Origin: Clostridia bacterium
GTDB taxonomy: Bacteria; Bacillota; Clostridia; Peptostreptococcales; Acidaminobacteraceae
Length of the DNA stretch: 37,184 nucleotides
NCBI GenBank assembly: GCA_016937975.1
Contig: JAFGVN010000106.1
Location: 1-37,184 of the forward strand
Direction: 5' to 3'
Of this stretch, positions 29,950 through 33,730 are shown piece after piece; within the stretch, counting starts at the first letter, position 1, and the number at the start of each line of letters is the position of its first letter. The notes under the pieces were generated by a model, which saw only the letters and a program-made list of their open reading frames with translations, was not told where the DNA came from and did not search any database. The translations under genes and the position numbers were made by a program.

Positions 29950-29988
29950 TATAATTAATAATAATAATGAATTTGATTAGGAGTGCTA

Positions 29989-30879
29989 ATGATAGATATT
30001 AATTTCGAACTGTATAAGATTTTTTATTTTACCGCTCACTATATGAGCTTCACAAAAGCCGCAGACGCCTTGTTTGTCACACAATCTTCCATTAGTCAGT
30101 CTATAAAGCAACTCGAAGAAAAAATGGGCGTGCAATTGTTTAAACGCAATAAAAAAAGAATCGCCCTTACAAAAGAAGGTGAAATTCTTTTTACCCACGT
30201 TGAGCAAGCCTTTCATCACATTAAGACTGCAGAAAGGAAAATTGAAAACTATAACATCGGTGAAATCCATGTCGGTGCCAGTGACACCATTTGCAAATAT
30301 TATTTACTTCCTTATTTAAAAGATTTTCATAAAAATAATCCAGAAATTAAAATCAACATTGTCAATCAACCTTCAAGAAGAACCTTAGAGATGATTCAAG
30401 AAGGTTTAATGGATTTTGGTATTGTAGCAGTCTCAGAGGATAGGAACTTTGAAGACATTGAGCTTTCAACTTGGAAAACGTATGATGAAGTCTGTATTGC
30501 TGGAGAATATTATTTCAACCTTTTAGGTCCAACCTGTCAATTAGAAGACTTAATGGAATGCCCCATGATCACCCTAAGAGAAAATACCAATACAAGACAA
30601 TTTCTAGATGAAGCCTTTCAATCAAGAGGTCTGTATTTACAGCCTGAATTTGAGATGGTCAGCGTGGACTTGATTATCGAAATGGTAAAAGCTGATTTAG
30701 GAGTAGGTTTCGCCATGGAAGACACTTTAAAGGATTTAGAGGTTCATAAGGATCTCTTTCAAATTAAAATCAATCCTCCACTTAAATCTCGTAAAATATC
30801 TTTTGCAGTCAGTCAATCACAACCCTTGTCAGAAGCCTCAAAAAAATTCATTGACCACGTTAAAAAAATGGTAAAATAA
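29989..30879 (+). CDS. LysR-family transcriptional regulator
   Basis: 296 residues. The N-terminal winged HTH (FTKAADALFVTQSSISQSI) is canonical; the C-terminal substrate-binding domain covers about 90-295. ATG at 29989 was chosen because AGGAG lies five bases upstream. It is divergent from purL with about 100 bases between starts, so it could control purL or only itself. A regulatory link to the selenium genes 1 kb further on is possible but not shown. No co-inducer can be named. Confidence 0.88.
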   Translation: MIDINFELYKIFYFTAHYMSFTKAADALFVTQSSISQSIKQLEEKMGVQLFKRNKKRIALTKEGEILFTHVEQAFHHIKTAERKIENYNIGEIHVGASDTICKYYLLPYLKDFHKNNPEIKINIVNQPSRRTLEMIQEGLMDFGIVAVSEDRNFEDIELSTWKTYDEVCIAGEYYFNLLGPTCQLEDLMECPMITLRENTNTRQFLDEAFQSRGLYLQPEFEMVSVDLIIEMVKADLGVGFAMEDTLKDLEVHKDLFQIKINPPLKSRKISFAVSQSQPLSEASKKFIDHVKKMVK

Positions 30880-31580: not shown

Positions 31581-31614
31581 AAAAAAAAAAAAAGAAAGCG
31601 CTAATTAGCGCTTT
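31581..31614 (-). terminator. Terminator of the HesB-like selenoprotein gene
   Basis: Perfect palindrome with half-arm AAAGCGCTAA, followed by C and a run of thirteen T on the minus strand, three bases past the stop codon. Confidence 0.92.
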
Positions 31615-31617
31615 AGT

Positions 31618-31932
31618 TTAACCGCAACTTCCGCTGCAAGATCCACAAGCAGATTCACCTTGTTCAACTGGTCTTACTAAATAGCCACCACCAGTTAATT
31701 GAACAATTACATCACCTATTTGATCATAAATATCTTCTTCCATGATGAATGTAACATCATTTGTATCGTCCACAACGTCAGTATCACTTAACTCATCCAG
31801 AGTTAAACCAAAGCTTGGACCGCCTCAGCCCATACCAGCAATATAAATTCTAATATTGCTAGGTTGGTCTGCTTGCTGATCAATAATTGCTTTAATAGCA
31901 TTTACTGTTTCTTGATTCGTTTGAATCTTCAT
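31618..31932 (-). CDS. HesB/IscA-like selenoprotein (UGA = selenocysteine at codon 36)
   Basis: 104-residue product read from ATG at 31932 through an in-frame TGA at 31825-31827 to TAA at 31618. The residues around the TGA are IAGMG-U-GGPSFGLTLDE, the A-type carrier (HesB/IscA) position normally held by a cysteine that binds Fe-S. The other two ligand cysteines are in the C-terminal CGSCSGSCG tail. The HesB-like selenoprotein family is established; here the TGA is followed at +19 to +37 by a 7-bp SECIS hairpin. A stop reading would leave a 35-residue stub without active-site residues, while conservation continues through the TGA. AGGAGG precedes the ATG. Next to DUF3343, TusA and YedE, this makes a selenium block. 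Likely role: Fe-S or selenium handling; exact function unknown. Confidence 0.9.
31788..31827 (-). promoter_or_regulatory. Bacterial SECIS element and UGA of the HesB-like gene
   Basis: The UGA is at 31825-31827. A perfect 7-bp stem TTAACTC / GAGTTAA (31788-31806) with loop TGGAT starts 18 bases after it; the loop carries a G at its second position, about 27 bases from the UGA. Both distance and loop G agree with SelB-binding bSECIS elements. Confidence 0.85.
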
Positions 31933-31986
31933 ACAAACCTCCTATGATTTTAAACTTTGCTTTTACAAAGTAAGGGTCAATTTATA

Positions 31987-32013: not shown

Positions 32014-32042
32014 ATTATACATTGTGTCAGACACACTGTAAA
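32014..32042 (-). promoter_or_regulatory. Promoter of the HesB-like selenoprotein gene
   Basis: TTTACA (32037-32042) and TATAAT (32014-32019), 17-base spacer on the minus strand. The spacer contains a 13-bp palindrome TGTGTC-A-GACACA (32023-32035). Confidence 0.8.
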
Positions 32043-32235: not shown

Positions 32236-32263
32236 ATAACTATTAGCTAAAGCTAATAGTTAT
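32236..32263 (-). terminator. Terminator of the yedE-tusA-DUF3343 operon
   Basis: 12-bp perfect stem (ATAACTATTAGC / GCTAATAGTTAT, four-base loop) that includes the DUF3343 stop codon and is followed by TTTTT on the minus strand. Confidence 0.75.
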
Positions 32264-32501
32264 CAAATTTCAATATGTAGTTTTCTTCCCATATCTCATA
32301 AATTCTATGAATATTATTTGTGTTGATTTCCTTTATGAACCCATCAAAGTCATCACACTCAAATACAATGGACACACCACAGTCTACACTCAGTTTTCTA
32401 GGTGCAGGCATGGTTTCATAAGGCATTTTTAGTGATTTTAAACTTCTTTCAAGTTGCATAACTCCTGAGAAAGTATGAAATATAACCAAATAGCTTATCA
32501 T
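32253..32501 (-). CDS. DUF3343 protein, putative selenium/sulfur carrier
   Basis: 82 residues. YLVIFHTFSGVMQLERSLK at the N-terminus and the PAPRKLSVDCGVSIVFE centre (the conserved P-R ... D-C-G) are DUF3343 marks. The single conserved cysteine in DCG is the likely carrier site. This family is known to occur next to YedE and YedF in selenium-using bacteria. Its ATG overlaps the tusA stop (ATGA), so it is coupled to it. Function is inferred from family and neighbours only. Confidence 0.85.
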   Translation of the reverse strand: MISYLVIFHTFSGVMQLERSLKSLKMPYETMPAPRKLSVDCGVSIVFECDDFDGFIKEINTNNIHRIYEIWEENYILKFDNY

Positions 32502-32689
32502 TTAGATCCCTTAATAAGAAAGTCCTCTGTAGTGATTTCATACTTTTGACTTTTTAAAAATCTTGATACATTTTGTAAAGCTGCTGTATTGTCTACTATT
32601 ACTTCAATGTAAGCCGGTTTGTCCTTAAGTGCCTTTTTTGTTTTAAGTACTGGTTCAGGACAAGATAAACCCGATGTATCGATTCTCAT
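32498..32689 (-). CDS. TusA/YedF-family sulfurtransferase-like protein
   Basis: 63 residues, the size of a TusA-fold domain alone. The conserved active-site motif is LSCPEPVLKTKKAL (C-P-x-P), giving a persulfide or perselenide cysteine. In selenium-using Clostridia such YedF-like proteins accompany YedE and are thought to carry selenium. Two ATG codons follow AGGAGG; the second (32689) has the better spacing of five bases, the first would add one methionine. It lies between yedE (seven to ten bases upstream) and DUF3343 (four-base overlap). Confidence 0.88.
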   Translation of the reverse strand: MRIDTSGLSCPEPVLKTKKALKDKPAYIEVIVDNTAALQNVSRFLKSQKYEITTEDFLIKGSK

Positions 32690-32698
32690 CATAACCTC

Positions 32699-33730
32699 CT
32701 AATCTCTATTTATGATACTTACAAACAATAAGAATATTGCGAGTACACAAAGTGCTGGAACAACTCTTTCAGAAGCGCCTACTAAACCTAAATTATGCGC
32801 TAGACCAGCACCCATCATCAAGCCCATAATGGTTACAGAAGAATCCACATTACCTTCAGAAGATAATATTAATTGTCTAAGTGGACAACCACCCAATAAC
32901 ACAGATCCCCATCCTGCGACAAGCATGCCAAAGAAATTCACATACCATACGCTATGTGCTGCAGGTTGACCTTCAAATCCCATATGGAAATTACCAAATA
33001 CTAAATTAGAAACTAATGCACCAAGAAAAATACCGATAAATCCGATGATTAAATAATAATCTCTAAACAATGCAATGTCTCTAATACCACCTACCATACA
33101 TAAACGTGTTCTTTGTGCAATCACACCAGCAACAACACCGACACCTAAGGATAAAAATATTGGTGCATGTGCTGGAAGGTTTCCGTCAGCACCCCATATC
33201 ATGAAGACAGGTTGAATCATCACCATTGCCAATAAAGCAACCATAATGACTGGCAACATCAATCCACCTGCTTTTGCTTGGTTGTAATTTCTTCTTAAAG
33301 AGAAACCTTTATTTAAGAAAAACACACCTATAATAATACCTGTTGCAAAACCTAAAATACCTAAAATCCCATTCAAATCTCCACCTGCAAGACGCAAGAT
33401 CATACGTAGTGGACAACCCAAGAATGCCAGTGCACCAATCATAACCGTCATTCCTAACAAGAAACGAATAAATGGTGCTGAACCACCTTTTACATTAAAT
33501 TCCTTCGTAATGTATGCTGCACCAAATGCACCAAATACAATACCTATGATTTCTGGTCTTACATAAGCTAATTTACTAGCACTATGCAATCCAAAGGATC
33601 CAGAGATATCTCTTAAGAAACATGCAATACAAACACCCATATTACCAGGATTACCATACTTCACTAAAACACCTGATAAAATACCAATAATTAAACCGCC
33701 TAATGCAATCATTAACTTTTTATTCTTCAT
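32699..33730 (-). CDS. yedE: YedE-family putative selenium transporter
   Basis: 343-residue membrane protein of the YeeE/YedE family with about nine to ten hydrophobic segments. It has the conserved cysteines of these thiosulfate or selenium importers: CIACFLRD, LGCPLRMILRLAGGD, RLCMVGGIRD and GGCPLRQLILSSEGN, the two GCPLR copies marking the internal duplication. With tusA and DUF3343 behind it in one operon it most likely brings selenium (or a selenium/sulfur compound) into the cell for selenoprotein synthesis, as for the adjacent HesB-like gene. Confidence 0.9.
   Translation of the reverse strand: MKNKKLMIALGGLIIGILSGVLVKYGNPGNMGVCIACFLRDISGSFGLHSASKLAYVRPEIIGIVFGAFGAAYITKEFNVKGGSAPFIRFLLGMTVMIGALAFLGCPLRMILRLAGGDLNGILGILGFATGIIIGVFFLNKGFSLRRNYNQAKAGGLMLPVIMVALLAMVMIQPVFMIWGADGNLPAHAPIFLSLGVGVVAGVIAQRTRLCMVGGIRDIALFRDYYLIIGFIGIFLGALVSNLVFGNFHMGFEGQPAAHSVWYVNFFGMLVAGWGSVLLGGCPLRQLILSSEGNVDSSVTIMGLMMGAGLAHNLGLVGASERVVPALCVLAIFLLFVSIINRD

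Follow-up and report, generated by a model that had tools for sequence, protein, structure and literature searches.

A HesB-like gene of a Clostridia bacterium with an in-frame UGA that is probably read as selenocysteine

A HesB/IscA-like open reading frame on the minus strand of the window, the 37,184-nucleotide stretch of DNA analysed here, extends over 104 codons from an ATG at position 31932 to the end of a TAA at 31618, with an in-frame UGA at codon 36. Considering recoding and family jointly, we conclude from conserved sequence features that this UGA is very probably decoded as selenocysteine (Sec) and that the gene encodes a HesB-like selenoprotein. The gene and its flanking signals are as follows.

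31618-31932, minus strand: coding sequence of the HesB/IscA-like selenoprotein, 104 amino acids, putative Sec at residue 36, stop codon TAA at 31618-31620 (from the translation, family matches and homologues)
31825-31827, minus strand: in-frame TGA, codon 36, putative Sec codon (the sole inner TGA; Cys or TGA here in homologues; pN/pS)
31938-31943, minus strand: ribosome binding site AGGAGG, 5 nt before the ATG (from the sequence)
31595-31614, minus strand: terminator-like hairpin followed by a T run, 3' of the stop (from the sequence)
32014-32042, minus strand: promoter-like TTTACA-17-TATAAT, 11 of 12 consensus matches (by consensus match only)
32023-32035, no strand assigned: perfect palindrome TGTGTC-N-GACACA in the promoter spacer, operator-like (from the sequence)

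Promoter-type matches are not more frequent in this region than in shuffled sequence (3 found against a shuffle mean of 4.3). The palindrome was rejected as the mark of a regulon because the genome contains a single exact copy and one further site with one mismatch. Near the same place upstream of hesB, the congeners L065 and L066 carry a palindrome of different sequence, GTGATA...TATCAC, as judged by eye. A pattern search of viral contigs gave no match. The window also carries an FMN riboswitch aptamer on its minus strand (788-904; Rfam, 121.5 bits). The host genome comprises 4.03 Mb in 153 contigs, with 98.7% completeness and 4.6% contamination; the window is its contig C39.

The UGA codon and the decoding machinery

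The residues around codon 36 translate to AGMG-U-GGPSFG. An earlier note on this DNA proposed that the TGA replaces the Cys of the A-type carrier motif and that similarity continues after it, and our comparisons support both points. In both alignments shown, those with HI1723 (PDB 2apn) and Aq_1857 (PDB 1nwb), residue 36 is paired with the first conserved Cys, and homologues with Cys or TGA at this position are conserved well beyond it. Purifying selection acts on the codons that follow the TGA, with pN/pS values of 0.255 and 0.225 against the two congeners L065 and L066. A TGA occupies the same codon in 45 other copies, with the frame open to a later stop; two of these, L111 and L123, have no tail and are possibly in decay.

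These comparisons are based on 46 TGA copies (that of the window included) and 35 Cys copies with the respective codon at the same position, taken from 60 stretches that were chosen among the matches listed to spread over genera. Duplicates and near-copies (L018, L020, L021, L025, L026 and L027) are omitted from the hairpin sets, and an exact duplicate of L023 (L069) and a near-copy of L024 (L085) are omitted from the tree and the tail counts, which reduces the Cys set there from 35 to 33. A second copy at L104, with Ala instead of Sec or Cys, belongs to neither set. The genomes are a sample from a larger group, and a homologue is present in 173 of the 393 genomes of the window's order, a count whose weak matches may include distant IscA relatives. 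The host genome itself holds three family members, two with TGA (in the window and on contig C82) and one with Cys (on contig C49).

The earlier note had called for a search for selA, selB, selC and selD. The genome encodes a tRNA-Sec (70 bits against a cut-off of 47), which ARAGORN likewise reads as tRNA-Sec with anticodon tca, as well as selB (387 bits; cut-off 242), selA (616; 268) and selD (379; 125). The three protein genes lie together on contig C128 and not on the hesB contig. With this set the host decodes Sec, as is characteristic of hosts of HesB-like selenoproteins. Neither of the two outcomes that the note had set against its own reading, a genome without selB or selC and homologues that end at the codon in question, was observed. 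The selD gene (L031:7900-8938, on C128) has an in-frame TGA ahead of its longest open reading frame, within MTTAAG-U-AAKIG, and by its sequence SelD of the same genome is probably a selenoprotein as well.

The distribution of selA among genomes follows that of the TGA form. Every one of the 69 genomes whose listed matches include a TGA copy has a selA match, compared with 255 of 393 overall; in two of the 69 it is weak (G191, 1.2e-22; G239, 1.0e-42). Among 44 genomes with only inner-stop-free copies among the matches listed, four have no selA match. Such counts per form are lower bounds, in which a TGA copy means one TGA within the match, its position having been verified in the sampled loci.

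The SECIS hairpin and its two registers

A candidate selenocysteine insertion element follows the UGA.

31786-31808, minus strand: bSECIS hairpin of nine contiguous pairs (two of them G-U), with loop UGGAU at 31799-31795, starting 26 nt past the UGA

The suitably spaced bSECIS-type hairpin described in the earlier note is thus confirmed. It satisfies the published bacterial model and provides the element expected for a HesB-like selenoprotein; the model, as given in PMC13188914, specifies a loop of 3-9 nt, a G in the first two loop positions, a spacing of 16-37 nt and an MFE of -7.5 or below. The 60-nt fold has -15.5 kcal/mol, and by plain dinucleotide shuffling the folding energy is unremarkable (24 of 200 and 11 of 200 shuffles as good in two runs). 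At gathering score, Rfam reports no SECIS in the window and only the FMN riboswitch. Plain folding energy is weak evidence for a SECIS, and a synonymous-codon test was used instead, in which the hairpin score of each gene is compared with those of 2000 shuffles drawn with the codon usage of its own surroundings.

In this test the window gene reaches p = 0.0015. Values below 0.05 were obtained for 38 of the 46 TGA copies and for none of the 35 Cys copies, a set that contains one exact-duplicate row. The scoring rule was written after the hairpins had been inspected and was then applied unchanged outside the order, where the hairpin is significant in 24 of 26 TGA copies and in none of three Cys copies, and where the best-scoring loop lies at +26 or +27 in all 26. 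This outside sample consists of 29 of the best 30 loci (the window's own omitted), some of them closely related to one another; 98 of 398 genomes gave a match.

Within the set of 46 TGA copies, the loop lies at +26 in 32, over codons for A/T-L-D-E, and at +22 in 12, where a GGTY or GCTT loop lies over codons for L-G/A-L-D. The remaining two fit neither register. One of these, L070, has its loop at +31 (p 0.01). At L109 (L109:7133-7232), a TGA copy in a genome with selA (G082), no hairpin fitting the bacterial SECIS rules was seen.

The +26 set (32 copies, 31 distinct) shares a seven-pair stem in which 90.3% of cells are paired. Five of the seven pairs have changed on both sides, and none of 500 shuffles reaches the covariation score; when the partners are slid against each other, pairing falls to 27-54%. 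In the same columns, 52.9% of cells are paired in 30 of the 35 Cys copies (all but L028, L029, L030, L069 and L085), a control that is not quite neutral, as 3 of 500 shuffles pair at least as well and 18 of 500 score at least as high for covariation. The +22 stem is 90.5% paired, and its covariation, reached by 42 of 500 shuffles, says little because the stem is nearly invariant. Of the eight TGA copies that miss p 0.05, six belong to the 12 of the +22 set and one to the 32 of the +26 set. Support for the +22 register is therefore weaker than for +26. On the tree, the +22 set requires six changes, at least two of them by well-supported branches. The hairpin thus occupies two registers over one protein motif, a less familiar feature of the family; in the passages of the literature that were searched, no statement of two registers was found. 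In the Cys copy L023:8001-8303, the codons GCT CTG GAT GAG that form stem and loop of the SECIS elsewhere are still present, which may be a relic of an earlier Sec codon.

A true stop at codon 36, as translation table 11 would place it, leaving a hesB pseudogene or a 35-residue peptide, would agree with the ordinary folding energy and the absence of an Rfam SECIS hit, but is barely credible in view of purifying selection beyond the TGA, a TGA at the same codon in 45 other copies whose frame stays open to a later stop, the results of the synonymous-codon, covariation and outside-order SECIS tests, and the full Sec machinery of the genome.

Family, fold and exchange of Sec and Cys

HesB-like selenoproteins are, as the earlier note stated, a known family (described in PMC1794560, PMC11097638 and PMC13188914). 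The best NCBIfam match of the window protein is to NF038090 (IscA_HesB_Se) with 54.9 bits against a cut-off of 85, followed by TIGR01911 (HesB_rel_seleno) with 46.6 bits against 66.35. Judged by these two models it falls outside the named families, and Pfam gives no match at E 0.01; that the gene was overlooked, as the earlier note had it, is plausible in view of these scores. Its relatives behave in much the same way. By an approximate conversion of bit thresholds to E-values, none of the 46 TGA copies reaches about 85 bits on NF038090 and six reach about 66 bits on TIGR01911, which leaves about 40 or more below both curated cut-offs. PF01521 matches 21 of the 46 at E 0.001, the window's copy not among them. 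We read the NCBIfam models as narrow, and the cut-off as a property of the model rather than of the protein family.

The window protein shares with HesB-like selenoproteins (TIGR01911, NF038090) its size, its best-matching family, a Sec-decoding host and a Sec that stands where IscA has its first Cys, in the UxGP motif (U36-G-G-P in the window), a motif given for the family in PMC13188914. It differs in its sub-threshold scores, in a Cys-rich CxxCxxxC tail and in the two SECIS registers among its relatives. Methanococcus maripaludis has a HesB-like selenoprotein that was identified through mutagenesis and 75Se labelling (PMC11097638). It is likewise a Sec-containing IscA relative, a likeness drawn from its description, but is archaeal; archaeal SECIS elements are mostly located in the 3' UTR (PMC13188914).

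A profile of the relatives matches the PDB entries of HI1723 (2apn), Aq_1857 (1nwb) and IscA (1s98, 1r94). The AlphaFold2 model of the window protein has a mean pLDDT of 85.8, with a tail from about residue 91 at pLDDT below 50, and Foldseek searches with this model return HI1723, IscA, Aq_1857 and SufA as best matches (five IscA-family chains, E 1.4e-4 to 4.4e-4). The product is accordingly predicted by modelling to have the IscA/SufA/ErpA fold.

A tree of 79 proteins, built with the Sec/Cys residue masked, requires 15 Sec/Cys changes, of which well-supported branches force at least nine, although it is based on few columns and has many open forks. Small, well-supported clades that contain both forms are L067/L068, L100/L102, L101 with L096/L098, L070/L124, and the window's genus with L022/L034. 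For HesB-like proteins, Table 1 of PMC1794560 reports two Sec-to-Cys and no Cys-to-Sec events. A Cys copy lies within the same stretch in 13 of the 46 TGA loci, and 31 of the 69 genomes with a TGA copy also have an inner-stop-free copy among the matches listed. These sequence patterns suggest that Sec/Cys exchange is frequent and that Sec and Cys paralogues often occur side by side. Gly follows the Sec in 32 of the 46 TGA copies, and Ser follows the Cys in 26 of the 35 Cys copies. At L104:7329 onward, a tandem HesB copy that has Ala-Asp where the Sec/Cys motif would stand adjoins a TGA copy.

Tail cysteines, neighbouring genes and function

In A-type carriers three Cys are required as ligands, and the second and third form a C-x-C motif close to the C-terminus. 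The window protein resembles the carriers IscA, SufA and ErpA (1r94, 2d2a, 2apn) in its predicted fold and the place of the first Cys; it differs in having Sec for this Cys and in lacking a C-x-C tail. Its tail, CGSCSGSC, contains three Cys, of which C96 is conserved in 90% or more of the TGA copies. Across these copies, a single Cys follows the Sec in 15, within the last two residues, none in two, and three or more in 29; the short-tailed copies come from few clades and do not count as independent. Three or more later Cys are present in each of the 33 Cys copies counted. C-x-C occurs in the last 22 residues of two of the 46 TGA copies and six of the 33 Cys copies.

The single later Cys in 15 of 46 TGA copies leans toward selenol-thiol chemistry over a three-Cys Fe-S carrier, and we tentatively favour such a function for the window protein, while acknowledging that the reading could well be wrong. 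SelB, bound to the UGGAU-loop hairpin just past the UGA, would bring Sec-tRNA to codon 36, and translation would continue into the flexible, Cys-rich tail. Sec36 would replace the first ligand Cys, with C96 as the most conserved tail Cys, and Sec36 together with a C-terminal Cys may act as a selenol-thiol pair in redox reactions or in sulfur or selenium transfer in anaerobes. The Cys paralogues would be selenium-independent forms.

A second possibility, if a somewhat doubtful one, is that the protein acts as an A-type carrier, binding iron or an Fe-S cluster with Sec36 and the tail Cys and delivering it to apoproteins. The IscA/SufA/ErpA fold and Cys position are consistent with such a role, and with three tail Cys, a number reached or exceeded in 29 of the 46 TGA copies, the window protein could still hold a cluster. 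The scarcity of C-x-C tails in both forms and the copies with a single later Cys argue against it, as does an unpublished observation given in PMC11097638 that a disruption mutant of the HesB-like selenoprotein of M. maripaludis is unimpaired in nitrogen fixation.

The selenol-thiol reading can be extended to this whole branch of HesB proteins, which would then be an IscA-fold selenol-thiol enzyme that is no longer an Fe-S carrier and has a minimal site of Sec36 and one C-terminal Cys. On this extension, Sec and Cys would have switched many times in the window's order, synonymous codons of the FGLxLDE motif would have supplied the SECIS in two or more registers, and the Sec and Cys paralogues would form a selenium-responsive pair. 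We consider this extended proposal unlikely to hold as a whole.

Upstream of hesB in the window, 320 bp away, are three genes that raise the possibility of a role in selenium handling.

32253-32501, minus strand: DUF3343 Se/S carrier-like protein (PF11823), 82 amino acids (57.1 bits; cut-off 25)
32498-32692, minus strand: SirA/TusA-like single-domain protein, 64 amino acids (best match the N-terminal part of YedF, 55.3 bits, below the cut-off of 110)
32699-33730, minus strand: YedE family putative selenium transporter (TIGR04112; 428 bits, cut-off 200)

YedE, YedF, DUF3343 and adjacent SirA-like genes are predicted selenium genes according to PMC5322559. The protein might then deliver or buffer selenide together with YedE, the SirA-like protein and DUF3343, an account that we regard as improbable. 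The three upstream genes, which belong to these predicted selenium families or close ones, recur in the congeners L065 and L066, and the family as a whole, Sec or Cys, co-occurs with selA (a selA match in 166 of the 173 genomes that have a homologue and in 89 of the 220 that have none), an association uncorrected for kinship. However, the neighbourhood is found in three of 68 mapped loci, all of one genus (15 of the 68 are covered for less than 3.5 kb on one flank); the distance to hesB in the congeners is about 1.0-1.2 kb, with two other open reading frames in between; hesB has its own promoter-like site; and the LysR encoded nearby is distinct from the selenium LysR. As a candidate for the latter, the window gene at 29983-30879 was rejected, since it scores 146 bits and ranks fourth, while another gene of the genome exceeds the cut-off with 291.

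No conserved HesB neighbourhood with a clear function was found among the 68 mapped loci, and the recurrent neighbours look like local synteny. They are PurL and LysR in the window's family, TrmB-like and AccC-like genes (read from sequence) in another family, and, in the clade of the C82 type, a KsgA-like gene (read from sequence), RecU and a YruB-type glutaredoxin, the latter two just under their cut-offs. Six loci of the family have a LysR gene no more than 3.5 kb from hesB; in five of these, as mapped, it is divergent from purL. The second TGA copy of the host genome, on C82 (L033:15536-15823), has a one-Cys tail and adjoins a CoA-disulfide-reductase-like gene (read from sequence). Six other loci of its clade have a glutaredoxin at most about 0.6 kb from hesB; the one searched is YruB-like, with 87.4 bits against a cut-off of 88.55.

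The window gene adds a well-supported copy to the known HesB-like selenoproteins. Most of the TGA copies sampled in the order score below the curated cut-offs, and some may therefore be cut short or missed in annotation. The synonymous-codon test offers a simple way to tell recoding from true stops in other families, and the many exchanges and side-by-side pairs of Sec and Cys forms are natural replicates in which to test what Sec adds.
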